A stretch of DNA of 43,541 nucleotides, taken from the NCBI GenBank assembly GCA_018302465.1, contig JAGVZQ010000002.1, forward strand, positions 1 through 43,541, given 5' to 3'. The notes beneath the pieces were generated by a model. It was not told the DNA's origin and ran no database searches. It saw only the letters and a list, made by a program, of their open reading frames with translations. Source of the stretch: Candidatus Woesearchaeota archaeon. GTDB lineage: Archaea; Nanobdellota; Nanobdellia; SCGC-AAA011-G17; GW2011-AR20. How positions within the stretch are numbered: the first letter of the stretch is position 1; every line of letters starts with the position of its first letter. A program made the translations under genes and the position numbers. Shown piece by piece: positions 2,932 through 36,968 of this stretch.

Positions 2932-3450
2932 ATGGAAAAAATATTAAACATACTATCGACCTTTTTCGAAAATCCAAAGAAAGAATTTTATATCAGAGAA
3001 TTAGCAAAGATATTAAAAACAAACCATACAACTGTAAGGAATTATCTTAAAAAATTAGAAAAAGAAAATTTCCTAATAATAAGCAAAACTGGGCTTTATC
3101 CGTCTTATAGATTAAATCTATCAAAGAAAACTCTAAATTTAAAATTATTTTACAACCTTGAAAAATTAAGAAAATCCAACTTAATAGAAGGTTTAGAGAA
3201 ATACTATGATTTCCCTGTCATAGTTTTGTTCGGAAGCTATTCAAAAGCTACTGATGACAAAGAGAGTGATATTGATATTTGCATAATATCAAAAATAAAA
3301 AAAGAATTTAATGTTAAAGACTATGAAAAAAAACTCAACAGAGAAATAAGTTTGCATCATTTTGAAGATATTAAGGGTGCTAAAAATAAAGGGTTAATTA
3401 ACAGTATATGTAATGGTATTGTTTTATCAGGAGATTTGGAGGTTTTCTAA
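2932..3450 (+). CDS. HTH-fused MNT nucleotidyltransferase (antitoxin of HEPN/MNT module)
   Basis: The 172-residue protein has a winged-helix domain (about residues 1-60, TTVRNYLKKLEKENFL recognition region) followed by a minimal nucleotidyltransferase domain with the motif GSYSKATDDKESDIDI near residue 100 (GS followed by DxD). In characterised HEPN/MNT modules the MNT partner neutralises the HEPN RNase, in some cases by AMPylating it. The position where many active members carry a third Asp reads REISLHHF here, so catalysis is uncertain and neutralisation may be by binding. The HTH fusion suggests that it also represses its own operon through the palindrome just upstream. Its stop overlaps the next ATG by one base (TAATG). 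Confidence 0.85.
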   Translation: MEKILNILSTFFENPKKEFYIRELAKILKTNHTTVRNYLKKLEKENFLIISKTGLYPSYRLNLSKKTLNLKLFYNLEKLRKSNLIEGLEKYYDFPVIVLFGSYSKATDDKESDIDICIISKIKKEFNVKDYEKKLNREISLHHFEDIKGAKNKGLINSICNGIVLSGDLEVF

Positions 3451-3854
3451 TGGATTTTAGAACGCACTTAAAAGAAGGAAAAATAAGAGAAGTAAAGAAA
3501 GATATAATCCGTGCTAAAAGCTTAATGAAATCTTCAAAACAGGCAGTAGACACTTCTAAATTAATTCCTTTAAATGAAAATACTTGTAAAACAATATTCA
3601 GAGAGTTATATGAAGGGCTAAGAGAATATTGTGAAGCACTAGGCTACTTACATGGTTACAAATTCTTTGATCATCTGTCTATAACTTATTTTTTAAAAGA
3701 AATTATAAATAAAGGTGAAATTGCAAAAAAGTTTGATAGGCTTAGGAAAATAAGGAATGGAATAAATTATTATGGAGAAGATTTAAATCTGGAGACTGTG
3801 GAAGAAGCATCAAAAGAAATTCCTAAAATTATTAAAGAACTAGAAACTATTTAA
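3450..3854 (+). CDS. HEPN-domain toxin
   Basis: The 134-residue all-helical protein has the HEPN layout of long helices with a C-terminal RKIRNGINYYGED motif. HEPN RNases use an R-x4-6-H active site. Here the arginine-asparagine pair is kept but the histidine position is a tyrosine, a variant common in archaeal HEPN proteins next to nucleotidyltransferases, so RNase activity cannot be assumed. Translation is coupled to the MNT gene through a one-base overlap, which marks the two as a module. Confidence 0.82.
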   Translation: MDFRTHLKEGKIREVKKDIIRAKSLMKSSKQAVDTSKLIPLNENTCKTIFRELYEGLREYCEALGYLHGYKFFDHLSITYFLKEIINKGEIAKKFDRLRKIRNGINYYGEDLNLETVEEASKEIPKIIKELETI

Positions 3855-13558: not shown

Positions 13559-14215
13559 TTAAAGAACACCAAATAGACCATATACAAGCCTTTCAGAAGA
13601 CTTTATTAGATTGTCATAACTATCCCCCTCAACTATAATGCAATCCCCTTTTGAATATACTTTATTTTCATCCCCTAACACTAAATTTATCACAATAACC
13701 CCATCTTTTGCATCTTCACATGTTTTAACAGGATAATCTGAATCTATTTTCTCTGTAAATGCACCCTGTGTAGGTATCTTAAAAACTCCAAAATCAGCAG
13801 TTCCTAAAACACCTGCAAGCTCTATCGCCCCAATTGATGCATAAGCCTTTAAATTAGGATCAAACGTGATAAATATCCCCCCAGCATTAAGTATTTTTTT
13901 TACTTCTTTAGAATTTAAAGAAATAATTTTTACATCTTCTGGCAGATTTCTTAAAGGAATTTGATATAAGTGCCCCACCCCATACCTCTCTGCATTGATC
14001 TGTAGCTCATACACTTTAATGTCTCCTGCCTTGTTTTCAACAAGAGTAAATTTCTCTCCTCTAGGAGATTCATATATATGCATCCCAGTAAAAGTCCCCT
14101 TATTATAGGTTAAAGAAGCAAATATAATAAAACCAACCAATATCACAAAGAATACACCTATAACAATGCTTATTCTCCTACTGTTGTTACTTCCTTCAAT
14201 TCGTTCTTCAATCAC
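13559..14215 (-). CDS. S-layer-linked membrane-anchored protein, paralogue A
   Basis: The 218-residue protein has one N-terminal transmembrane helix (about residues 17-36, ISIVIGVFFVILVGFIIFAS) and an external domain. The C-terminus holds a motif series CEDAKDGVIVINLVLGDE, NKVYSKGDCIIVEGDS, then IKSSERLVYGLFG. The same series ends the preceding gene product (14212-14754), so the pair arose by duplication. The two genes overlap as ATGA and lie directly after the S-layer gene, suggesting a role in S-layer anchoring or assembly. I know no named family. Confidence 0.72.
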   Translation of the reverse strand: MIEERIEGSNNSRRISIVIGVFFVILVGFIIFASLTYNKGTFTGMHIYESPRGEKFTLVENKAGDIKVYELQINAERYGVGHLYQIPLRNLPEDVKIISLNSKEVKKILNAGGIFITFDPNLKAYASIGAIELAGVLGTADFGVFKIPTQGAFTEKIDSDYPVKTCEDAKDGVIVINLVLGDENKVYSKGDCIIVEGDSYDNLIKSSERLVYGLFGVL

Positions 14216-14754
14216 AATCCCACCAGCTTTATATCAATTTTATCTATAGATTTAGTTATCCCTTCATTATCTCCCTCTACAACAATGCATTTTCCTTCAT
14301 TATAAACTTTATTTTCTTCTGTAATCTTAAGATATACAGCATCTTCTGTGCAGTCTTTTATAGGCGCATTCTCAGGGCATCCTTCTTCTTTATCACAAGC
14401 ATTGATCACAGCTCTATTTGTAGCCTGTAAAGTATATGAAAGTTTCTGGACATTATAATTTAAATATGAATTAGTCTTGTTATGATCAAAAATTATATAA
14501 ACTTTATTCCCAAAATTCAGTTCTGGAACTGCCAAATCATTCAATTCCTCAGGAGAATAATCAAATATAAACTGAACACCATCGATTATAGTAACCCATC
14601 TATTATCTAAGGTGGATGAGAATTTTTGTCCATTATATTTTATACTTTTCCCAGTCTGAGGCTCTTCAGAATTAGAAGTAATTCCAATAAACCCTATAGT
14701 GCTAGAAGCCATCAAAAAAATAATAAATAAAGACATCCATTGAGCTTTTTTCAT
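14212..14754 (-). CDS. S-layer-linked secreted protein, paralogue B
   Basis: The 180-residue protein begins MKKAQWMSLFIIFLMASSTIG, a signal peptide or prepilin-like anchor (K-K-A-Q before the hydrophobic run, as in the pilin-like proteins at 17372-24090). The C-terminal part has CTEDAVYLKI, ENKVYNEGKCIVVEGDN and ITKSIDKI, matching the downstream paralogue. Two Cys residues (DACDKEEGC-like region about residues 118-124) could form a disulfide outside. It follows the S-layer gene by 70 nt and is coupled to the next gene. Function unknown. Confidence 0.7.
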   Translation of the reverse strand: MKKAQWMSLFIIFLMASSTIGFIGITSNSEEPQTGKSIKYNGQKFSSTLDNRWVTIIDGVQFIFDYSPEELNDLAVPELNFGNKVYIIFDHNKTNSYLNYNVQKLSYTLQATNRAVINACDKEEGCPENAPIKDCTEDAVYLKITEENKVYNEGKCIVVEGDNEGITKSIDKIDIKLVGL

Positions 14755-14792: not shown

Positions 14793-14826
14793 AAATAAAA
14801 AGAAAAAAAGAAAGGCTTAAGCCTTT
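14793..14826 (-). terminator. Terminator after the S-layer gene
   Basis: The perfect palindrome AAAGGCTTAAGCCTTT (14811-14826) touches the S-layer stop codon. On the minus strand it is followed by a T-rich run (complement of 14793-14810). Together these form a hairpin and U-tract arrangement able to separate S-layer transcripts from the two small genes downstream. Confidence 0.55.
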
Positions 14827-17167
14827 ATGCTGTTGAAGCAACTACTGTTGGATTGGATGTTGTTCCTTTGACAGTTACTTCTGAACCCTTCAAGTTACTC
14901 TTGTAAGCTGAGTAATCTCTCAAGACTCTTGAAGCTCTTACTGTGTCTCCAGATTCATATCCGGCTACAACCATAGCTACTTTGTTACCATTTTCCTTCA
15001 AGCTAAGTATAGCCTCTCCAGAACTAATTCCAGAGTCTGCTCCATATGCAGGATATGTTAATCCTAGGAATTCAGCACTTAACTTGTTAACTGCAGGTCC
15101 TCCAACTAAGATTAAGTTGTCTGCAGCTTTATTAGATACTTCAGTATCTAATACAGGTGATGGTGCCTTATCCACAGCAGCCATAACAATACTTCCACCA
15201 GTACTACCAGAAGATACTACAGCAGATGTACCTTTAATTACTACATTAGCTTGCATAAAATCTGAAGGTATTTCTAATTCTACTTTATCTCCAGCACCCT
15301 TAGTCTTAGGGTTTCTAATAATCATACCGAATCTGGATCTGTGGTCTTCATCTTTTGTACCAATTGTAGTGGATTCCCATATCAATTCATTAGCTTCTTC
15401 AGATGATGCACTAATACCCAAAGATACTAAAGTACCATTTACATGAGCACCAGTGGTATTGGAGAATGTCCAGTTAGTCCATATGGTATCTGCTCCTGCA
15501 GGGGATAAGTCTGTATCAACTGGCTCTATTACTAACTCAATACTGGTATGGAAACTATTTCCAGCACCGTCTCCTGCATGCCTACCTCTTCTAGTGGCAT
15601 TAAATACAATAGCAGTTCCTGTTGTTCCTCTAACCTTATTGTTATCAATATATGCAAAGTTTGTCGTATTTAGATTATTAGTCAACCATCCTGCTAATTG
15701 GGTAAGTCCATTACTATCTTCATAATAAATATTATATGAAGATGAGTTAAATGCACCTATCCATATCTTATCTGACTTAGGGTCATTACTAAGAGTACCA
15801 TTCTTTACAAATCCGGCACCATCTAAATCAATTGCTAATACATCATCTACATTAGAAGAGATTAATATAGCAGCCTCTCCTGATTGTCTACCTATAACCC
15901 CAGCTTCACTAGATTCTGAATCAAACCCTGTATCCCTTTCAAGTGTTAATATCAAGTTTTCTGCATCATCTGTTGTCAAACTATCAAAGCATACACTTAG
16001 GTAGTTATTAGGGAAACTTATACATTCCCCGGCTGCAGGAGGCTCATCTTTGAAGTCATTCAAAGCAAAGTCATTTTGCAATGCCAATACAGGTCCAGAT
16101 GTTCCCCAGCTTACACCATTAGCGGCTGTGTTTGTATAAGCTGTTGTTCCTACAGTATTCATATTTTTAACAACCCATTTCCAACAGTCTGGATCATTAG
16201 GGTCATCACTTGTACATACATCATCTCCACCAAAATACTTTCCGCCATCTTGGAGTGTATCTACAGCATCAGTTCCAATAACTAAATTAGCAGAACTTGA
16301 TTTTTGGTTGTTTGAGTCATAGAATTGCTCTGAGTTTTTAATTTCTAATCCATTAACAGTAGCTGTCTGTCCATCAGATAGAATCTTTGAAACTCCATCT
16401 ACATCAACAGCTACATCTCCACCAGACCCCACCTTGGATAACATAATGGTCTTCCCATCCACTTCAACACTCTCTCCTGAAGTTAACAGATATTCTGTAC
16501 CAACACTAGCTGTAAGTTTTGTTGCAGAGTCTACTGAAGTAATTTTTAGTGTTTTACCTAAAAATTGGATTTCCAATGCATCACTTGATGAAGTCTTATT
16601 AACTTGTATTTGCTCATCAAATCTGTATAAATATACAAGTGCACCTTTTTCTATTTCCATCCTAATTGCAGATCCATAGTCATCATCTGAACTTGACAAA
16701 CTAGTCTGGATACTTGTGTTTTTGTTAAGATTTAACAAGAATTCCTCACTTGTATCATAGTTTGTACTTTGAAATGTTACTTCTCCATCAAACAAACTCT
16801 CAACATCATCATCTGTCATAACAGAATCAAACTGATTTACAGCAGCTAAGTTATTCGTTAATGGAATATCTTCTGTTTGTCCACCACTAACACTAACAGT
16901 TGTTGACCCACCAGCACTTCCTACTGGAACAGATGCAAGTCCAGCTGCAATATCTAAAGCACCGGATGTATCTTTAGCTGCTCCTTCTCCAGAAGCTCCA
17001 GATCCTAAAACTAATAAATAATCAAACTTTTTAGTTCCAACGTTAACAAATGGTGCAGGATATTCATTTAAATCTGCTGCTAATGCTCCTGTCATTGAAG
17101 CACCGAGCATCGCTACACCTGTAGAAATAGCGCCTAATTTTTTAACTATACCTTTTAATTTTTGCAT
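14825..17167 (-). CDS. S-layer protein, methanococcal (S_layer_N/S_layer_C) type
   Basis: The 780-residue protein begins with a basic/hydrophobic signal peptide MQKLKGIVKKLGAIST... cut after ALA at about residue 30. The C-terminal domain has the methanococcal S-layer signature: LILVGGPAVNKL, FLGLTYPAYG, SGISSGEAIL, VAMVVAGYESGDTVRASRVL, and a closing strand. An N-terminal part (YPAPFV ... DYLLVLGSGA) matches the other half of this family. The middle, about residues 100-600, is Asp/Ser/Thr-rich and carries several N-glycosylation sequons (e.g. NWT, NTT, NGT). Start choice: the Met at 17167 has GGAGGTG 6 nt upstream. The longer frame from 17182 would overlap this site. It forms the paracrystalline coat outside the membrane. 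Confidence 0.93.
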   Translation of the reverse strand: MQKLKGIVKKLGAISTGVAMLGASMTGALAADLNEYPAPFVNVGTKKFDYLLVLGSGASGEGAAKDTSGALDIAAGLASVPVGSAGGSTTVSVSGGQTEDIPLTNNLAAVNQFDSVMTDDDVESLFDGEVTFQSTNYDTSEEFLLNLNKNTSIQTSLSSSDDDYGSAIRMEIEKGALVYLYRFDEQIQVNKTSSSDALEIQFLGKTLKITSVDSATKLTASVGTEYLLTSGESVEVDGKTIMLSKVGSGGDVAVDVDGVSKILSDGQTATVNGLEIKNSEQFYDSNNQKSSSANLVIGTDAVDTLQDGGKYFGGDDVCTSDDPNDPDCWKWVVKNMNTVGTTAYTNTAANGVSWGTSGPVLALQNDFALNDFKDEPPAAGECISFPNNYLSVCFDSLTTDDAENLILTLERDTGFDSESSEAGVIGRQSGEAAILISSNVDDVLAIDLDGAGFVKNGTLSNDPKSDKIWIGAFNSSSYNIYYEDSNGLTQLAGWLTNNLNTTNFAYIDNNKVRGTTGTAIVFNATRRGRHAGDGAGNSFHTSIELVIEPVDTDLSPAGADTIWTNWTFSNTTGAHVNGTLVSLGISASSEEANELIWESTTIGTKDEDHRSRFGMIIRNPKTKGAGDKVELEIPSDFMQANVVIKGTSAVVSSGSTGGSIVMAAVDKAPSPVLDTEVSNKAADNLILVGGPAVNKLSAEFLGLTYPAYGADSGISSGEAILSLKENGNKVAMVVAGYESGDTVRASRVLRDYSAYKSNLKGSEVTVKGTTSNPTVVASTA

Positions 17168-17173
17168 GTAACA

Positions 17174-17180
17174 CACCTCC
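17174..17180 (-). promoter_or_regulatory. Shine-Dalgarno of the S-layer gene
   Basis: GGAGGTG on the minus strand, 6 nt before the ATG at 17167. It is among the strongest translation signals in the window and fixes the start. Confidence 0.7.
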
Positions 17181-17204
17181 ATATGTGTTTCCCTTGAGTG
17201 GGAT

Positions 17205-17371: not shown

Positions 17372-17806
17372 TTATTTCATACATAAAGATACTTCTACCT
17401 TTAAATTTCTTGATAAAGGTTGGGAAGCAGAGCTAAACTTGTTCAAACAGCTGCTCGTATCCCCTATTATAATAGGTTTACTTCCTTCAACCTTAAATTC
17501 ATATACTATATTAGGCTCTAAAACAGAATCTATCATATTTTTTATCTCATCTTCTAATTTTCCACAATCCTCAAGGCATTCTGGAGCATTAGACTCACAG
17601 TTAAGAATTTCTTCTTTCATACTTACTTCGTTACATAAAGTATAGCTTAACACAGAAACTCTGAGAGCATCTGCCTTAGCACTTAATAAGGAATCACTAT
17701 TTCTAGTATCTTCTTTTAACAAGAAAGGGAGAGTAAAAACCAATAAAATAACTATCACAACTACAACCAATACAAGTCCAACTGATTCTATTTGGCCTTT
17801 ATTCAT
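17372..17806 (-). CDS. Pilin-like surface protein (5th of the cluster)
   Basis: The 144-residue protein begins MNKGQIESVGLVLVVVVIVILLVF. A short basic leader ends in KG, followed by Q at the mature +1 position and a long hydrophobic helix. This is the class III (type IV prepilin) signal of euryarchaeal pilins processed by an archaeal prepilin peptidase. The remaining domain is polar with five to six Cys residues (CNEVS, CESNAPECLEDCGK, SCLNKF, SLCMK), probably disulfide bonded outside. Its ATG overlaps the upstream pilin-like gene by 8 nt. It is the last gene of the cluster before the S-layer gene. Confidence 0.7.
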   Translation of the reverse strand: MNKGQIESVGLVLVVVVIVILLVFTLPFLLKEDTRNSDSLLSAKADALRVSVLSYTLCNEVSMKEEILNCESNAPECLEDCGKLEDEIKNMIDSVLEPNIVYEFKVEGSKPIIIGDTSSCLNKFSSASQPLSRNLKVEVSLCMK

Positions 17807-18272
17807 ATGTAGTTATGGTTAGTTTCCCAACCTTAACCTCCTTTGTTAATGGGAAGTATAAAGAAACAGGAATAGAAACTACATTTTTATTGCCAGTTTG
17901 TCTAACCCTATTATATATTATGTATGAATTACATCCAGGATAATTATCAGAATTACATTCAACTTTGTCTACTTCAGGATAAGTTTGAGTTATCTCTATT
18001 GTTCTAAACCCTAGTCCATTAAGTTCTAAATCTAAAATCTTTAAGGTATCAACAGCTTCTTTTTCATTGCCAAGTTCGCTCTGTTGAATTAGTGGAGAGC
18101 CAGGAAGGTTATTTAATAGGCTTAAACTCCTGCTTTCTTCTATATCTTTCTGTATTCCTTGCACAGATAAAGTATTATACCTATAAACTCCAAATAAAGC
18201 CATAGCAAAGATAATAGAAAAGATAAATATTACAATTATTGATTCATGTATTTGTGACTGAGCTTTTTTCAT
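17799..18272 (-). CDS. Pilin-like surface protein (4th of the cluster)
   Basis: The 157-residue protein begins MKKAQSQIHESIIVIFIFSIIFAMALFGVYRY: leader KKA, mature +1 Q, acidic residue near +6, then one transmembrane helix to about residue 28. A soluble domain follows with two Cys (about residues 110 and 118) and predicted beta strands. The start follows the upstream stop directly (TAA-ATG). It belongs to the same transcription unit as the four other pilin-like genes. It is a subunit or pseudopilin candidate, with no family assigned. Confidence 0.7.
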   Translation of the reverse strand: MKKAQSQIHESIIVIFIFSIIFAMALFGVYRYNTLSVQGIQKDIEESRSLSLLNNLPGSPLIQQSELGNEKEAVDTLKILDLELNGLGFRTIEITQTYPEVDKVECNSDNYPGCNSYIIYNRVRQTGNKNVVSIPVSLYFPLTKEVKVGKLTITTYE

Positions 18273-19148
18273 TTAAAACACCAATGGACAATTTTCATTT
18301 AGTAGCGCCTCATTTTGCTTTTCAAGAGCTTTTGCTGTATCAACTAATTCCTTTCCACTTAAATTTTCCATCTTTTGAAAGTTTAAGAGTAAGTTATTAT
18401 AATTACAATTAGCAGGAAGATGGCTTATTTTATTCCTATAAGAGCTAATAACATCCAATCTTATCTTATCTGCCTTCTCAAACAAGCATGCTGAGTTTTC
18501 TCTTGAGATTATCGCTCCATACAGCATTGCCCTGTTATAATAATCTAAACTATTCCCGCCCCTAAAGTAGATCTTTCCACTTTCTTCTGTTTCAGGGATT
18601 ACATAAATGTCTGCATTATCATTCCTTTCAAAATAAACCTTTATCTTGTTTTTAGGGTCATTAGTTATCTCAACATTATCTGGGAAATAAGACTTGAAGT
18701 CCTTGCCAATCTCTCTAACTACCTCTTCATTACTATTATCATATACCAAAGAATAAGTATCTGTTTTCTTTATTATGTAAAAGAAGTTAGTTATCTTAAA
18801 TGGTAATTTATCAGGACTAAATCCTATAAGTACCTCTTCATTAAGATTTCCTAAAGAAAAGATTAGATTATCAGACTTTAAACTCCTTCCATTTATCAAA
18901 AGGACTTCTTCAGTAGGCGTGCAAACAACTCTCATATCCACAGGAAGCCTGAATGAAGTTGAAGTTTGGAACTGAGATCCTTGCAGCTCTGAAAAAGAGC
19001 TTTCTAAATTGTTCAAAACTCTTATAGTGGTCTTTTCTTCCTGCACTTCCTTAAACTTCAAACCAAAACTAACAAGGAATGCAAGTATAATTGCTCCTGC
19101 AATAAGTACAAAAACCAGATAAAATTGAATCTCAGCCTTCTTTGACAT
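18273..19148 (-). CDS. Pilin-like surface protein (3rd of the cluster)
   Basis: The 291-residue protein begins MSKKAEIQFYLVFVLIAGAIILAFLVSFG: leader KKA, +1 E, and one transmembrane helix to about residue 28. The external domain (about 260 residues) contains mixed strands, FRLPVDMRVVCTP and Cys residues near 72, 225, 253 and 287. The C-terminal part is helical. It is the largest of the five pilin-like proteins, so it could be a minor, tip-type subunit. It overlaps the upstream gene by 17 nt. Function is inferred from signal type and gene order only. Confidence 0.68.
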   Translation of the reverse strand: MSKKAEIQFYLVFVLIAGAIILAFLVSFGLKFKEVQEEKTTIRVLNNLESSFSELQGSQFQTSTSFRLPVDMRVVCTPTEEVLLINGRSLKSDNLIFSLGNLNEEVLIGFSPDKLPFKITNFFYIIKKTDTYSLVYDNSNEEVVREIGKDFKSYFPDNVEITNDPKNKIKVYFERNDNADIYVIPETEESGKIYFRGGNSLDYYNRAMLYGAIISRENSACLFEKADKIRLDVISSYRNKISHLPANCNYNNLLLNFQKMENLSGKELVDTAKALEKQNEALLNENCPLVF

Positions 19149-19578
19149 CTTTTAATATAACTTTAGTCTCCCCATCTATAATATTATTTTCAAGAACAAA
19201 GCTTATTTCTCCATTAGTTCTTATATTTGAAACAGTTGTCTTTAGTTTATCAACTGTAAACCTATTATACTTTACATCAGAAGGTATGACATTTATCTCA
19301 CCATTCTTCTCTTCAAAAGAAATGCTTTTTATTGAGCTTGGGAGTCTTAATGGTTTATTAGAACTAAAACTTGAAAAAGTCATAACTGTTCCTTCATTTT
19401 TATTATAAACATTCTCAATAGATTGTCTAAACTCTGATTGGAACTCAACATATACAGCCTGCTCATTTAATCTGTTTAACTTGTTTATCTGCTGAAAGCC
19501 AAATAAAAAAACTAAACCTACAACTATTATTACAAAAATGTAAATAAAAACTTGGCTAGAAACTCCTCTTTTTTGCAT
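19132..19578 (-). CDS. Pilin-like surface protein (2nd of the cluster)
   Basis: The 148-residue protein begins MQKRGVSSQVFIYIFVIIVVGLVFLFGFQQI: leader KRG before a hydrophobic helix, in the class III style, then a beta-rich domain lacking Cys (strands ISFEEKNGEINVIPSDV, NGEISFVLENNI). It lies 31 nt after the stop of the large Cys-rich gene and overlaps the next pilin-like gene by 17 nt. No family recognised. Confidence 0.68.
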   Translation of the reverse strand: MQKRGVSSQVFIYIFVIIVVGLVFLFGFQQINKLNRLNEQAVYVEFQSEFRQSIENVYNKNEGTVMTFSSFSSNKPLRLPSSIKSISFEEKNGEINVIPSDVKYNRFTVDKLKTTVSNIRTNGEISFVLENNIIDGETKVILKDVKEG

Positions 19579-19609
19579 AAACTCTTACTTTTTATGTTTC
19601 TTATATAGT

Positions 19610-21574
19610 TTATGGAATAATAGTATATCCCGGACTTAATCTCTTAGTTCTTGTATCCTCGCACTTGACATAATAGATTCCATCTCCATTTAATTGCAGT
19701 TGATGCTGCACATTATTGCTTGTAGACATCTTTAGCCCAGTTGTAAAATCAAAATCCTTGACTTTGTTTGAATAGGAACAAGTAGAAGGTTGGTCTGTTT
19801 TTATTATCAATGCTCCTCCGCTTGTATAAACCCTCTTTAAGCTAGGATAGGCATTACTATTAACTTCTAAGGTTGTAGTTTCTTCATCTTGTTTAAATCC
19901 ATCATCACAGTTAACAGTTATAGTATGGGCCCCATCTGACAAACTTATATTTGCATCATGCACAGTTTCAGAAGTTAATATATTCTTATTAAACTGAATT
20001 CCAGAGCCATATCTACAAGTTGAGTTTCCATTATTATAAACTCCTCCAGTTGTCTTTACAGTGACTGGAACAATATTAGTATAAACTGTAGTGTCTTTTG
20101 GCTTTACTTCAGTAATTTTTAATTCTGGTGTATCAATGTTAAATACAGCGCTTATTGTAGCCTGGTTTCCAGCATCATCCGTGCAGATTACATCCATATT
20201 ATGGCTTCCTATTTCAAGATTAATGTCTAATGTACTTGTAGTATCATCAGTAACACTGAAATCTTTTTCATCTCCACTATCTAATTTGTAACTACAAGTC
20301 GACTTAGCGCTTGTTGAAACAAACAAAGATTGGCTTGGTCTGAATATAGTTCCCTGAGGAAGATTATTCCCAGTTATTACCAAAGGTTCTGTTCCCATTA
20401 TTATAAACTCAAATCCTTGATCCATAGTATTTTGTCTTGGAGATGAATCTCTGCATCTGAAATAATATTTATTTTCCTGTCCAGGAGTTATATTTTTTAA
20501 TGTAGTATCGCATCTAAACCCCCCCTCGGAAATATCCTTCACATTCTCACAATTAAATGAGTTCTCTGCTGACATTTCTTCGAATCTTACATCATTTCCT
20601 TTGTTATACCTACATTGTTGTATTCCTATCTTATCATCAACATACATGAAAAATTCAGCTTCATTTACATTGGCTGGAACAGCTGCTCCGCTTACCACAG
20701 CAGTGCTGGTTATCAAGGGCTTACTTATATCTGGAGCCTCCCTTAGCTTAAAGTTAATAAAGTAATCAGCTCCCATAGTATTTGGCACAGGATCTTGGCA
20801 TTTAATATAGCCACTGCATGCCTCCCCTTCTCTACAGTCTTCTATTGTTTGTAAAGAAACATTTCCGATATCAAATAATAAGAAATGCTCATCATCATAC
20901 AGCCCCCCACCTAATTCTCTTCCAGCACTATTATCAAATCCTAATCCAGGAGAGGAGAATACTTTACATCTTGCATTCTCATCCAAATCAAACTTAACAG
21001 CTAAAGTAGAGAATGTTGGAACCTCACCCAAAATTTTACACCCGCTATTGGTGCTTTCAACATTATAAGATTCTCTTGTATCTAAGTCTATAGCTTGGCA
21101 TTCCTCCACTACAGGTGCACTTTTATCAGTTGACTCAACTTCAACACATCTTTCTTCTTCATTTAAATATTGGCAACTTTTCCCCAAGGACTTACAATAA
21201 TATTCAGTACAAGGCATTAATTTATCATTACAAATATCACAATTTACTCCGCCTTCCGGAATTCCATCCCATACATTACATGTTCCTCCAGATGCTTTAA
21301 AACCACCTATAGTTCCACCAATTACAGCCCCGACTATTGCAGCTACAACTATTGGAGCAATAGCATTAACTTCCTCTGAATTAGACACAAAATAACCAAG
21401 TGCCCCCCCTATCATTACTCCAGGAAAACCGGCAAAACTCCCAATACTCCCCCCGACAATCACGCCATAAGATGCATGACCTGTATATGTACTCAAGGGA
21501 GTTGCGTAAAATAAAAAAGTAGATACTAAGATAATCAAGAATACGGACAAACCCTTTTTTAATATTATGTCCAT
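19610..21574 (-). CDS. Large Cys-rich surface protein with glycine-zipper membrane segments
   Basis: About 654 residues. A basic start and signal/anchor helix (about residues 5-25) are followed by two glycine-rich hydrophobic segments (GVIVGGSIGSFAG...GGALGYFV and APIVVAAIVGAVIGGTIGGF), typical glycine-zipper helices that pack tightly or oligomerise in membranes. Next is a Cys-rich module (CNVWDGIPEGGVNCDIC, MPCTEYYCKSLGKSCQYL). Several Ig-like repeats then follow, each with a Cys pair (CSYKLDSGDEK...DVICTDDAG, STCRYGSG...TVNCDDG). Start choice: the Met at 21574 comes one base after the stop of the upstream gene. The longer frame from 21607 adds 11 residues translated from the end of that gene. 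Function unknown; a scaffold for the pilin-like proteins is possible. Confidence 0.7.
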   Translation of the reverse strand: MDIILKKGLSVFLIILVSTFLFYATPLSTYTGHASYGVIVGGSIGSFAGFPGVMIGGALGYFVSNSEEVNAIAPIVVAAIVGAVIGGTIGGFKASGGTCNVWDGIPEGGVNCDICNDKLMPCTEYYCKSLGKSCQYLNEEERCVEVESTDKSAPVVEECQAIDLDTRESYNVESTNSGCKILGEVPTFSTLAVKFDLDENARCKVFSSPGLGFDNSAGRELGGGLYDDEHFLLFDIGNVSLQTIEDCREGEACSGYIKCQDPVPNTMGADYFINFKLREAPDISKPLITSTAVVSGAAVPANVNEAEFFMYVDDKIGIQQCRYNKGNDVRFEEMSAENSFNCENVKDISEGGFRCDTTLKNITPGQENKYYFRCRDSSPRQNTMDQGFEFIIMGTEPLVITGNNLPQGTIFRPSQSLFVSTSAKSTCSYKLDSGDEKDFSVTDDTTSTLDINLEIGSHNMDVICTDDAGNQATISAVFNIDTPELKITEVKPKDTTVYTNIVPVTVKTTGGVYNNGNSTCRYGSGIQFNKNILTSETVHDANISLSDGAHTITVNCDDGFKQDEETTTLEVNSNAYPSLKRVYTSGGALIIKTDQPSTCSYSNKVKDFDFTTGLKMSTSNNVQHQLQLNGDGIYYVKCEDTRTKRLSPGYTIIP

Positions 21575-21575
21575 T

Positions 21576-23375
21576 TTATTGTTTTTCAGCTGTGTAGACA
21601 ACATCATTCCCTTCTGTATCTTTACCAGTCATATAATAATTACCTTCCTTTTGATAGACTTTATTTCCACCCTGTTCTCCTAGAACCTTCCCTAGTAGAT
21701 ATTGGGGGAGGAACCATTCAATAGCTTCCTTAGCTACAAAGGTTCCAGTTTTTTCTAATGAAACTTTTGCTCCCGCAGCAATAGGTGCTTTATAAAATCC
21801 AAGACTCAGAGCTTCTTTTATGTATCCTGGACCAAAATGGTATGCTCCAACTGCAGTGATAGCTCCAATAGGTGCTCCGACTAATACCCCCTCTGTAACA
21901 GATAATCCTTCTTTAAAGTTTCCACAATCTCCTAAATAAGAGCATTCAGTTCTATCACAAGAATTACTCCCTTTGCCACATATACCGCACGTATTTTCAA
22001 ATGTATGTTTACTATTTGGTATGCCTGTCAAATCTCCAATAAAATCTATTCCTGGAGGGTATTTTGGCCAGCATTCATTTATCCCCCCTGTATTATACAC
22101 ACATTGACTTTTTTCAGTATCTAAAGAACCACCTAACTTCAAACATTCATTTCTTCCACATTTCTTCCACTTTCCATCTCCGCATTTAGAACATTGATCC
22201 CATTTATTATCAACCCTAACTGCATTTTCATATTCAACATTATTTCCATCTATCACTCTTTCCTTGATTTGCGATTCGCATATAGTGTTTCTAAACGTGC
22301 CCAAAGGTGATACCTCTACTTTGCCAAGTTGGCAGGAGTAAATATAGTGGGTTGTTCCAGGAGGATTAGGGTCAACCCCCGTATTAGTCATACACCACGA
22401 CTCTCCATTATATCTTATCTCTCTTTCTCCTAAATCATCATTTGTTATAGCAATTCTTTCTGGAGTGCTACTTCCTTCTTCAAAACTATATTGAACAAAA
22501 CCATTAGCAACAAACGTATCTCCAACCTTGCAATTAATATCTATGCACGCTTTTTGTCCGCTATTATCCTCCCCACATACTGTGCCAAAACTAAAATCAC
22601 AATTTCCAACTTTCCCTATTTTGTCACTCTCACTATCATGAATAAATCCATCATAATTAACACCTGCAACATTCTCTTTATTCCCTTTAGAATCAACCAA
22701 GTATACATCCTCATTAAAGCATTGCTTAGTTGTTTCTTTCTTTATTCCAGGGCAAACTCCCGCTAAATCAGGATTGCTGCATAACGTCCCTCCCCTAAAA
22801 TCACCACTAATCTGAGAACATTCACTTGCAGTTGTCCTCCTGCATGTGGAGTCTTGCACGACACAACAGCCTTCTTGCAAAGAGTTTTTTTCAATACATT
22901 GTTCCAACGAAGTAATACTTGAATCAAAAGTTGTTTCAGCATTCTCTTCTTCTTCTGCTAATTCACACTCTTTTTGTGTCATTGGAAAAGAGCATTGCCC
23001 ATTAATTATGCAAGCCCCTGTTTGGCATTGAGATGCAGCAGAGCATGAATTTGAAGAGGTAGGAGTTCCACCTTGTCCAATGCATTGAGCTCTTGAAACT
23101 TTCTCAGAGCAAGTTCCCTCTGCATTAACGCAGCAGATAGGTTCATTACATACACTTACTTGAGAGCAAGCAAAACTGCTCTGCTTTAATGGTAATTTAT
23201 TTTCTGTATCAAAAGTTAAATCACAATTATCAGCGCTTGTATATGAGCAATATTCTCCATTCAAATTTTTTAAACAGCAAACATTGCTGGTCTGCGCACT
23301 TACAAGTGTTACATTTACAGGGATAAAACTAAACAAAAACATTACAATAATCAAAAAAGAGACTAGCTTATTCAT
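21576..23375 (-). CDS. Large Cys-rich secreted protein
   Basis: The 599-residue protein has a signal peptide (MNKLVSFLIIVMFLFSFIP ... VSAQ, cut near residue 28). Many Cys-rich units follow (e.g. NVCCLKNLNGEYC, PICCVNAEGTCSEKV, EGCCVVQDSTCRR, DQCSKCGDGKWKKCGRNECL, CGICGKGSNSCDRTECSYLG). A late hydrophobic Gly/Ala segment (GVLVGAPIGAITAVGAYHFG, near residue 500) and a C-terminal domain complete it. The repeats of C-C-x(8-12)-C resemble each other, so internal duplication is likely. Such Cys density implies oxidative folding outside the cell. It overlaps the first pilin-like gene by 8 nt and is followed at once by its companion Cys-rich gene. No named family. Confidence 0.7.
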   Translation of the reverse strand: MNKLVSFLIIVMFLFSFIPVNVTLVSAQTSNVCCLKNLNGEYCSYTSADNCDLTFDTENKLPLKQSSFACSQVSVCNEPICCVNAEGTCSEKVSRAQCIGQGGTPTSSNSCSAASQCQTGACIINGQCSFPMTQKECELAEEEENAETTFDSSITSLEQCIEKNSLQEGCCVVQDSTCRRTTASECSQISGDFRGGTLCSNPDLAGVCPGIKKETTKQCFNEDVYLVDSKGNKENVAGVNYDGFIHDSESDKIGKVGNCDFSFGTVCGEDNSGQKACIDINCKVGDTFVANGFVQYSFEEGSSTPERIAITNDDLGEREIRYNGESWCMTNTGVDPNPPGTTHYIYSCQLGKVEVSPLGTFRNTICESQIKERVIDGNNVEYENAVRVDNKWDQCSKCGDGKWKKCGRNECLKLGGSLDTEKSQCVYNTGGINECWPKYPPGIDFIGDLTGIPNSKHTFENTCGICGKGSNSCDRTECSYLGDCGNFKEGLSVTEGVLVGAPIGAITAVGAYHFGPGYIKEALSLGFYKAPIAAGAKVSLEKTGTFVAKEAIEWFLPQYLLGKVLGEQGGNKVYQKEGNYYMTGKDTEGNDVVYTAEKQ

Positions 23376-24090
23376 TTTTCACTCCAAATACAAACCCATC
23401 TTCTTCATTATCAGTTACAATTCTGTAAATTATACCATTATCTGCATCAGTTCTTGTTACAGTTACATCTTTATTTTCTAAGAAGTACTCATTAATATCA
23501 AACCCACCATTAACTTCAGCATTTACAATATCATTTACAGCATCATAAATTTTCCCAAAATCATCCTCAATTATAACATTGAAATCATTAACTGTTAGAG
23601 AAGTTTCTCCTTTGCTTACAACTAAAGGATAATCCATTTTAACAACAACACTGCTGTCCTTGATATCAGTTTCAACTTTTATCTCTCCCTTAACAATTTC
23701 AAAATCACTCAAATCACAATCATTCATAACAACATCTTTAACATTTGCGGAAATTTCATTTTCAATTCCTGTTTTTGAATTCATCTTATTTGGAACATCA
23801 GAGCTTTTATCAACAATAGCATTAATTTCATATCCTGAATAAATAACAGTAGAACTTATTTTATTAAAATAGCCTGAATTTTTTTTCAAATTTATTAAAT
23901 CCTCATTAACAGATTCTTCCATGCATAATGTAACAAAACTCTTTAATGGCTCTAATCTTGAAGCATCTAATGTTCCAGGTCTTGTAAAATTCTGAATTTG
24001 ATCTCCGTAAAAATATGCAACAGCGCCAATAACTGCTATAACTATTATACCAAGTAGAATAAAAACACTAACTTGCGCCCTCTTTTTCAT
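23368..24090 (-). CDS. Pilin-like surface protein (1st of the cluster)
   Basis: The 240-residue protein begins MKKRAQVSVFILLGIIVIAVIGAVAYFYG: leader KKRA, +1 Q and a transmembrane helix, again class III-like. An external domain (about 200 residues) follows, with strands and helices and two Cys near residues 56 and 120. It opens the cluster, with a TATA-like box about 22 nt upstream, and overlaps the next gene by 8 nt. Members of this protein type are widespread, to my knowledge, as hypothetical proteins in related archaea, but I cannot name a family. Confidence 0.7.
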   Translation of the reverse strand: MKKRAQVSVFILLGIIVIAVIGAVAYFYGDQIQNFTRPGTLDASRLEPLKSFVTLCMEESVNEDLINLKKNSGYFNKISSTVIYSGYEINAIVDKSSDVPNKMNSKTGIENEISANVKDVVMNDCDLSDFEIVKGEIKVETDIKDSSVVVKMDYPLVVSKGETSLTVNDFNVIIEDDFGKIYDAVNDIVNAEVNGGFDINEYFLENKDVTVTRTDADNGIIYRIVTDNEEDGFVFGVKNE

Positions 24091-24112
24091 AATTAATATC
24101 TTAATAACTTTG

Positions 24113-24122
24113 TATTTAAATA
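24113..24122 (-). promoter_or_regulatory. TATA-like box of the pilin-like cluster
   Basis: The minus strand reads TATTTAAATA, ending 22 nt before the ATG at 24090 and placed downstream of the PCNA stop. The seven-gene cluster therefore has its own promoter. Confidence 0.5.
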
Positions 24123-24129
24123 TTCTCTT

Positions 24130-24870
24130 TTAATCATTCTTAACTCTTGGAGCAAGAATAAATTGCAGGCTCATCTTATCCCTGACTTTGTATTCAATCT
24201 TTAGTGGATAATCATTTCCAAGATAAATATGAGCACTATCCGTAAGTTTAGCGCCCTTCATCATTTTTCTTAAGTATTCTATAGAATATTTCGAAGATAT
24301 CTTCTCTCCATCTAACTTTATATTTATATCCTCACTCGCCGGCATATTTATTTTTGCATTGCTCATATTTCCTGAAGCCTGTATTGAAATATTTTCTTTT
24401 TCCAATCCTATCAAAACAGCATCAGATACAACACCCATATCCTCAATTGCTTCGTCTAGTATGCTTGAAGACATCTCCACCTTGCCCGTAAATTTCAAAT
24501 CAGGCTCTTTATGCCCCTGATCATCAAGGTCTAGTAAAGCAAGGTTAAATGTTCTTTTTGAATCCCCCGAAAATTCTATTTTTAATTTATTCCCATTAAG
24601 TTCGAGGCTTAAAACATCAGAAGATTTTGCTCTTCTTAAAATATGTTTTAAATTATCAAGGTTAACAGATATATCTATAGGCTTCTCAACAGAATATTCA
24701 ACAAAAGCAGAGCTTAAAAGATTAAATTTGACCATTGCAACATTAGCAGGGTCCATAGCAACCAGTTCCACATTATCACCCTTAATCTTTAAAGTAACCT
24801 CATTTACAAGCTCAGAAATTATATTAATGGGGTCTTTCAAAAATCTGCTTTCAGCTAAAGTCAATTTCAT
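24130..24870 (-). CDS. pcn: PCNA sliding clamp
   Basis: The 246-residue protein matches archaeal PCNA along its length: the N-terminal TLAESRFLKDPINIISELV, the VELVAMDPANVAMVKF segment, the interdomain connector region, and the C-terminal YPLKIEY...LQFILAPRV. It forms the trimeric ring that tethers replicative polymerase, FEN1 and ligase to DNA. Length is normal. It follows the OB-fold/TFS/signal peptidase genes in order and orientation, so it may share their transcript, with a 51-nt gap. Confidence 0.95.
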   Translation of the reverse strand: MKLTLAESRFLKDPINIISELVNEVTLKIKGDNVELVAMDPANVAMVKFNLLSSAFVEYSVEKPIDISVNLDNLKHILRRAKSSDVLSLELNGNKLKIEFSGDSKRTFNLALLDLDDQGHKEPDLKFTGKVEMSSSILDEAIEDMGVVSDAVLIGLEKENISIQASGNMSNAKINMPASEDINIKLDGEKISSKYSIEYLRKMMKGAKLTDSAHIYLGNDYPLKIEYKVRDKMSLQFILAPRVKND

Positions 24871-35480: not shown

Positions 35481-36968
35481 TTAATTATTTATAGCAAATC
35501 TTAACAAAGCAACTATCCCGGTAATCTCTTTTATCTGCTTCCCCTCGCTCGTTTCTGTGGAAATAAACTCTACATCAGCCCCAGTAGCATCTGCTTTTTT
35601 CTCTAATTCCTCAGTAGTCTCTTCATCCAAGTCTTCAGACAGTAAAAGAAGTTCAACAGCCCCATACTCTAAAGCTTTTTCTACCTCTGCCTTACCATAC
35701 GCAACCATTTCAGGACGTTTTGCAAGAGTTTCCAGAACTTTGTTAACTATATTCTTCTCTTTTATTATAGATTCTTGTGTTAAAAGATCAGAAGATTTAT
35801 CCACCAGCTCATTAAGACCGAATTCTCCAGTATAACTCAGGTCTTTTGTTCCGATAACCTTCTTTTTTAATTCATTATTCAGATAATCCCCATCAAAAAA
35901 TGTTTCTTTAGTATGACCCGGACCCCCTATTAAAATTCCTTTTATCTCTTTTTTCTCTAAAAACTCTTTATTAGCAGCCCCTCCAATTCTTTTATAAAAG
36001 TCTTTGGCAGCTCCTTCTCTCAGCCTTGCAAACCTGGCCTGTGAATTATGAACTAAAATTTTATTAGCAAAAAAGTTTTTGTTACTAACTTCTATGTCTA
36101 TCATTGTAACTTCCTTATCTAATACTTTTATTGAGCTTATACTAACATCTTTTCCTTTGCAATCAACAAGCTTATCATGTTTTGTAAGTTCAAACGCAGA
36201 TTTTGTGCTGCCGTCCCCTAAGAATAATAAATGATCCCCGCTGCATTGTATTTCTTCCTCTTCTGTTTTGATAACATAAACATTCTCCTTTGTTGTCTTC
36301 CAGACTTTTTTTACTTCAGAAACTATTTCTTTTTTCTCTTCAAAATTATAGGATACAACTTCATCTCCTTCTTCCAACTCTTCTATATGGGCTGATTGTC
36401 CGTCTGCAAGATCCACAGAAGTATCTGGCATTAAACACTGCCCCCCTGATTTTATTTTTCCAGGAACTCCAGAAGTCAAATGAATAAGCTCAATTATTGC
36501 ATTCCCCTTTAACACCCCAATTGTCCCATCTCTATTGTCCATGACAATTAAACCATAGATTTCCTTAGTTTCAAGCATTTGTTTTAATATATCAAGAACA
36601 AAATTTTGATCGCATCTATACAACCTTGTCTGTATCGGTGTTGGAGGTTCAATGCTCCAGACTTTGATATCAACTTTGCTTTCATTTGTGGATGCATTTC
36701 CTGAAAAAGCAGCTAATCCATTTTCAGGTGTTCTCTTATACAATCTCAGATGCCTGATCATTTTTTCTAAAGAATCAATAACTCTCTGCCTGTTGTTCTT
36801 GTCTTTTATATTGGAAGCAGTCCCTTGCTCTTGCTCTAAATGCTGTATTATCTTAATTAAATCATATCCCTGAGGTACATAAACAGAAACAAGCTCAGTA
36901 TGCCTGCCTCTTATTGCTTCTAGTTCTTTAATGAACTTTTTTAATTTCTGTATTTTTCTTTTATCCAT
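35481..36968 (-). CDS. prf1: Peptide chain release factor aRF1, intein-containing
   Basis: The 495-residue precursor contains an aRF1 host protein of about 364 residues plus a 131-residue intein. Host landmarks are the stop-codon recognition loop TASNIKDKNNR (residues 51-60, NIKD where the consensus is NIKS), YRCDQNF (the YxCxxxF motif, 117-123) and GGQ at 175-177. The host resumes with SQARFARLREGAA at 309. Domain 3 is short: the zinc-binding mini-domain with paired CxxC found in many archaeal homologues is absent. aRF1 reads stop codons and its Gln triggers peptidyl-tRNA hydrolysis on the ribosome. The start overlaps the valS stop by 8 nt, so the two are co-transcribed. Confidence 0.93.
   Translation of the reverse strand: MDKRKIQKLKKFIKELEAIRGRHTELVSVYVPQGYDLIKIIQHLEQEQGTASNIKDKNNRQRVIDSLEKMIRHLRLYKRTPENGLAAFSGNASTNESKVDIKVWSIEPPTPIQTRLYRCDQNFVLDILKQMLETKEIYGLIVMDNRDGTIGVLKGNAIIELIHLTSGVPGKIKSGGQCLMPDTSVDLADGQSAHIEELEEGDEVVSYNFEEKKEIVSEVKKVWKTTKENVYVIKTEEEEIQCSGDHLLFLGDGSTKSAFELTKHDKLVDCKGKDVSISSIKVLDKEVTMIDIEVSNKNFFANKILVHNSQARFARLREGAAKDFYKRIGGAANKEFLEKKEIKGILIGGPGHTKETFFDGDYLNNELKKKVIGTKDLSYTGEFGLNELVDKSSDLLTQESIIKEKNIVNKVLETLAKRPEMVAYGKAEVEKALEYGAVELLLLSEDLDEETTEELEKKADATGADVEFISTETSEGKQIKEITGIVALLRFAINN
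36045..36437 (-). other. Mini-intein in the GGQ motif of aRF1
   Basis: Precursor residues 178-308. Block A begins with the splice nucleophile Cys (CLMPDTSVDLADG). The block B-like stretch is QCSGDHLLFLGDG, with His-246 in the conserved TxxH position (SGDH). Block F is DIEVSNKNFFANKILVHN, and block G ends in His-Asn followed by host Ser. These are the residues needed for standard class 1 splicing. At 131 residues there is no room for a homing endonuclease domain, so it is a minimal Hint-type intein. Removal regenerates GGQ-SQARF. It is known that inteins favour conserved active sites. That this one controls termination is inference. Confidence 0.9.

Follow-up and report, generated by a model that had tools for sequence, protein, structure and literature searches.

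Nanoarchaeota are tiny, probably symbiotic archaea, and how such cells touch and hold others is the question raised by the locus described here. It lies in a stretch of 43,541 nucleotides of a Candidatus Woesearchaeota archaeon genome (contig JAGVZQ010000002.1), hereafter the window. A preliminary description, made from the letters alone, had noted a cluster of seven genes, five for pilin-like proteins and two for large Cys-rich secreted proteins, with no assembly motor among them. What could such a set build, and what would drive it? All seven reading frames were found in place, all on the minus strand, and are given here with their neighbours (a slash marks the predicted class III cleavage site).

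14825..17182, (-) strand: S-layer protein (785 aa), PF05124 S_layer_C 5.4e-14; conserved neighbour downstream of E
17372..17806, (-) strand: pilin E (144 aa), leader NKG/QIESV; Glu at +3 in the family
17799..18272, (-) strand: pilin D (157 aa), leader KKA/QSQI; Glu at +6 in the family
18273..19148, (-) strand: pilin C (291 aa), leader SKKA/EIQF; modelled with a long N-helix and an alpha/beta head
19132..19578, (-) strand: pilin B (148 aa), leader QKRG/VSSQ
19610..21607, (-) strand: Y2 (665 aa, 23 Cys), C-terminal half of Y; Cys motif, Ig-like domains, own hydrophobic start
21576..23375, (-) strand: Y1 (599 aa, 41 Cys), N-terminal half of the giant Cys-rich protein Y; predicted to be secreted
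23368..24090, (-) strand: pilin A (240 aa), class III leader KKRA/QVSVF; in relatives always paired with Y
24091..24129, (-) strand: PCNA-A gap with TATA-like TTTAAATA; possible operon promoter, judged by sequence only
24130..24870, (-) strand: PCNA (246 aa), conserved neighbour upstream of A; not thought to be part of the system

The genes had been said to overlap nearly throughout. This is so for A/Y1, Y1/Y2, B/C and D/E, but C and D abut and a gap of 31 nt separates Y2 from B. The TATA-like TTTAAATA falls within the 39 nt between PCNA and A, and a promoter there serving the A-Y-B-C-D-E operon is plausible. Past the S-layer gene, two small secreted-looking proteins, dn1 and dn2 (13559-14754, minus strand), are conserved in close relatives only; dn1 starts with MKKAQ, a site that is missing in several of the relatives. 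Elsewhere in the window, the gene of the peptide chain release factor aRF1 (35481-36968, minus strand) carries a mini-intein of roughly 130 aa in its GGQ motif, with the junctions GGQ/CLMPD...LVHN/SQ (Pfam Intein_splicing 6.8e-14, TIGR01445 2.2e-9).

Are A to E pilins? They are five consecutive families with class III (prepilin) signals, and 256 of 264 homologues (A 117/117, B 38/38, C 33/37, D 33/36, E 35/36) retain the cleavage motif, a basic residue and then G, A or S before the helix, usually with Gln as the next residue after the site. Because the motif is conserved across these homologues and the gene order is kept across the phylum, the leaders are not due to chance, and the five pilin-like products of the preliminary description stand, with cleavage itself predicted from sequence. 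Pilin C, the one pilin modelled (AlphaFold2 with 33 sequences, pLDDT 92.5, pTM 0.83), shows in its model the architecture expected of a pilin, namely a single 54-residue N-terminal helix (residues 3-56) followed by an alpha/beta globular head and a helical C-terminus. No solved structure matched this model as a whole in Foldseek; the best match (E 0.01), a weak alpha/beta domain common with tRNA synthetases, was not used as evidence. Pfam and NCBIfam have no family for any of the seven window proteins or for the C and E family profiles, no curated pilin or class III family in these libraries matched A to E, and a PDB sequence search with C or D returned no match. Outside E and D, which have the Glu residues listed above, families A, B and C mostly have none, and Glu at +5 of the mature subunit, a mark of type IV filament subunits, is not a feature of the A-E families. 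This residue may be absent from minor and tip pilins, so its absence is not exclusionary. The capping tip pilin of known systems is likewise without an early Glu, as are A, B and C (PMC10191384). There is no major pilin in the operon. By sequence, the operon represents a new group of families of the type IV filament kind.

The two Cys-rich proteins of more than 600 residues in the preliminary description are present as reading frames (599 and 665 aa) but are not independent, being the fission halves of a single gene, Y. In most relatives Y is one protein of 1000-1430 aa, and its Cys number about 55-78 (typically 60-70); the reading as two Cys-rich genes was rejected on this ground. Aligned to the Y protein of AR20, Y1 covers residues 77-442 and Y2 residues 695-1370, and the split occurs in the middle of the protein, where conservation is weak and where some homologues are hydrophobic. 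A frameshift error is an unlikely cause, since in several genomes the two halves show a clean overlap, and Y2 begins with a hydrophobic segment of its own. The split is common to the window genome, a genome of the same genus (G001), G008 and G011, and is therefore a real fission in this family, each half having a hydrophobic start of its own; second copies of Y are also split in many Pacearchaeota loci. The model of Y1 was partial (pLDDT 73), good only at residues about 30-290 and 320-440, with no PDB match and nothing usable from Foldseek. Pfam found on Y only Ig-like and similar weak domains, the best being a sub-threshold Ig-like domain in Y2, and did not find the PilC/PilY1 C-terminal domain. 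Some Y N-termini themselves look pilin-like, for example KKA-STSYLEILILVIS (L093 9860, L115 8323, L128 7672, L122 4489), so that in some members of the family Y may be a modular pilin.

How widely is this arrangement kept? Relatives were searched with Y1, and the genes of 20 loci, from further genomes in the family and order, were read one by one. The gene order PCNA-(A-Y)n-B-C-D-E-S-layer is shared by Woesearchaeota and Pacearchaeota, often with PCNA upstream, and the sizes in these relatives are about 250 aa for A, 145-180 for B, 280-370 for C, 155-195 for D and 140-165 for E. Among 84,980 genomes scanned, 225 loci were confirmed, and 78 of these (GTDB) were analysed for adjacency; they are labelled Woesearchaeota, Pacearchaeota, Nanoarchaeota/Nanoarchaeia, plain archaeon and, in two cases, 'bacterium'. 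MAGs labelled 'bacterium' that carry the archaeal operon (L128, L132) are probably mislabelled bins. The adjacencies in the 78 loci were A-Y 108, Y-B 37, B-C 34, C-D 35, D-E 36, E-S-layer 28 and PCNA-A 35, and B-C-D-E was inverted in none of them. For a census of the phylum, 193 genomes at least 80% complete were taken. Because the Ig-like part of the Y profile gives weak matches in many genomes, pilin C was counted instead; it was present in 156 of the 193 (about 80%). Conservation of order, left by the preliminary description as a matter for checking, thus holds in the order, in the 78 loci and in distant families. In relatives, small gene pairs resembling nucleotidyltransferase/HEPN recur within the operon, most of them in the gap before B (L044, L049, L055, L058, L059 and L062, between Y and B or beside A-Y), and one lies at 2932-3854 of the window; the gap between Y and B behaves as if it tolerated insertions. 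The operon is real, conserved and so far unnamed, and a search of the literature available found no description of it. Profiles now exist for six families that are unnamed in curated libraries.

Within the operon the closest partnership is that of A and Y. Y nearly always follows A, and the two are duplicated together, as a unit repeated up to three times. Across 95 A-Y units from 66 loci, the distances of matched A and Y correlate at r=0.753; when A was swapped among units of the same locus, r fell to 0.499 (sd 0.025), and none of 1000 swaps reached 0.753. A and Y are thereby shown to duplicate and to diverge in concert, which would be expected if A holds Y and which supports that view without proving it. 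Linked duplication of the block could by itself give such a correlation.

What, then, would assemble these subunits? The cluster itself lacks PilB and TadC, as first described, but the cell does not: contig C27 of the window genome encodes a PilB with an inserted intein, a pair of TadC proteins and two class III pilins, all unlinked to the A-E operon. It is the cluster, and not the cell, that lacks a motor. The genome also encodes a prepilin peptidase (contig C5, PF01478 8.1e-15), the enzyme that the preliminary description had proposed to look for. Of the outcomes named there as refuting its view (a genome with no prepilin peptidase and predicted structures that lack a pilin helix and head, or a random gene order in relatives), none was observed. 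The intein in the contig C27 ATPase (L009 8492-11515) contains LAGLIDADG and sits inside the ATPase domain; G218 and G121 have ATPase reading frames of ~1285-1293 aa that may resemble this gene.

Over the 193 genomes, TadC was detected by PF00482 in 150 and prepilin peptidase in 187. Pilin C was present in 41 of the 43 genomes without a PF00482 TadC, and 40 of these 41 have prepilin peptidase, so that dependence on PilB/TadC is not general; a first reading of A to E as minor pilins of the PilB/TadC pilus is weakened by the same 41 genomes. Among the loci listed from 20 taken from TadC-negative genomes, the operon keeps its order, and in distant families A and Y are larger and a second class III gene set often follows; an S-layer gene beside E was not recognised in these distant loci. 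With phylum-specific profiles, run on the 41 genomes and on three TadC-positive genomes as controls, 43 of the 44 gave an ATPase match at E<=1e-5, mostly in reading frames of about 750-800 aa, and a TadC-like segment was found in many. The idea that these cells have no motor at all was rejected, since nearly all TadC-negative genomes have a divergent ATPase and many a TadC-like platform. In the 29 loci read, a secretion ATPase of ~770 aa is often adjoined by a protein of ~730 aa with 7-9 TM segments, and hhalign relates the family of this protein to TadC (probability 95%, E 2.2e-8). Also conserved next to the ATPase (L191 4279-5789 and equivalents in L192-L210) are a 4-TM protein (~180 aa) and two genes for small soluble proteins (~130 and ~220 aa). 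AR20 has both PilB/TadC and this second motor, followed by about eight class III genes. Families F5, F7, F9 and F12 lie beside the ~770-aa motor in AR20 and beside A-E in TadC-negative genomes, and some of them lie beside that motor in G018 and G152 as well; family F8 of the second set, which is short and drifted in iterative search, was left out. This bridge suggests that the ~770-aa motor and the A-E operon are one system.

We lean towards the view that A to E, as type IV filament subunits, form together with Y a complex that primes a filament or sits at its tip, Y being the effector or adhesin. The five distinct subunits would be cleaved at their class III sites by the prepilin peptidase of the genome and would assemble at the membrane into a hetero-oligomer of defined make-up, which would prime and cap a thin surface filament. 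Y, here as two secreted halves, would be a giant extracellular effector stabilised by disulfides and held by pilin A. It is probably an adhesin or contact module that projects past the S-layer encoded by the neighbouring gene, and it may form the tip of a cell-surface fibre that touches other cells. PilB/TadC of contig C27 is the sole candidate motor seen in the window genome, and elsewhere the divergent ~770-aa ATPase with its ~730-aa platform would more likely serve. A motor-specific form of this explanation, which we put forward tentatively, holds that the latter belong to a separate and so far undescribed type IV filament machine, spread across the phylum and made of the ~770-aa ATPase, the fused ~730-aa platform, the second class III set and A-E with Y as the distal complex, the contig C27 pilus being unrelated. 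It draws on the 41 genomes that keep C, with prepilin peptidase in all but one and ATPase profile matches in nearly all, on the likeness of the ~730-aa platform to TadC and on the four bridging families. On the other side, the ~770-aa ATPase was not found in the 97.7%-complete assembly of the window genome, the motor and A-E were never adjacent in the loci read, and G036, the one genome with neither C nor Y that was examined for this ATPase, has a 791-aa T2SSE reading frame.

Need the subunits polymerise at all? A to E could instead remain a static complex, anchored in the membrane by their N-helices, with the heads outside fastening Y and the S-layer and class III processing serving maturation only. 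In Pacearchaeota and in the order to which the window belongs, the constant linkage to the S-layer gene would suit such an anchor, as would the lack of a major pilin in the operon, the weak or unusual positions of Glu and the retention of the operon where TadC is not recognised. We nevertheless think it unlikely: TadC-less genomes nearly all have the divergent secretion ATPase and many the TadC-like platform, five distinct pilins are more than an anchor needs, and among the loci listed the distant ones have no recognised S-layer gene beside E. A pseudopilus as in type II secretion, which would export or fold Y and make no surface fibre, is very improbable. Five unlike pilins, one of them large, do recall GspG-K, and the Cys-rich Y is the only secreted product of the operon; however, Y has its own Sec-like leader, archaea of this kind have no outer membrane to cross, and C gave no match to GspK.

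The operon is a specific candidate for the means by which Nanoarchaeota (DPANN) touch and hold other cells, and a role in cell contact is plausible. Its candidacy rests on its presence in about 80% of the sampled genomes of the phylum, many of them without a recognisable TadC, and on a giant disulfide-rich surface protein. A separate machine, if true, would be one retained where no PilB/TadC pilus is detectable, and through it these reduced archaea could make contact with other cells.

Among known systems, the GspH-I-J-K tip of type II secretion has likewise several distinct small pilins and one large one, and C is like GspK in size and in having no Glu5; it differs in that C matched GspK neither in sequence nor in Foldseek, and there is no outer membrane and no secretin here. 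More widely, no homology to GspH/I/J/K or PilV/W/X was detected by Pfam/NCBIfam (window proteins, C and E families), PDB sequence search (C, D) or Foldseek (C). The modular tip pilins PilABC of Streptococcus sanguinis and the tips of the Tad-type Kil pilus of Myxococcus are minor-pilin complexes that display adhesive domains or adapt pilus tips (PMC9934059, PMC12075869), as we propose here; they differ in that the large domain is grafted on a pilin, whereas here it is a separate secreted protein. With the archaeal ATPase-TadC-PilA pili (Makarova et al. 2016, PMC4858521) the system shares its class III pilins, the occurrence of PilB/TadC and of prepilin peptidase alongside them in the cell, and S-layer proteins and predicted adhesins as neighbours, but none of A to E falls into a pilin family of Pfam or NCBIfam. 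That census reported a nanoarchaeal secretion ATPase without identified cognate pilins (PMC4858521), for which A to E are a candidate set.

The nearest parallel is the minor-pilin operon fimU-pilV-pilW-pilX-pilY1-pilE of the type IVa pilus of Pseudomonas, whose products form a priming and tip complex (PMC5979040, PMC10191384); assembly of type IV filaments starts from a minor-pilin complex (PMC10191384). Both operons combine several minor pilins with a very large secreted adhesin-like protein that is not a pilin, apart from the motor genes, and our operon indeed holds several minor pilins and one giant secreted protein. It differs in a Y without the PilC/PilY1 domain, with a Cys-rich N half and an Ig-like C half, and in its archaeal class III leaders, its linkage to S-layer and PCNA genes and the repetition of A-Y up to three times. 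By analogy, then, the operon may work like the FimU-PilVWX-PilY1 tip complex, which it resembles in layout and not in sequence.
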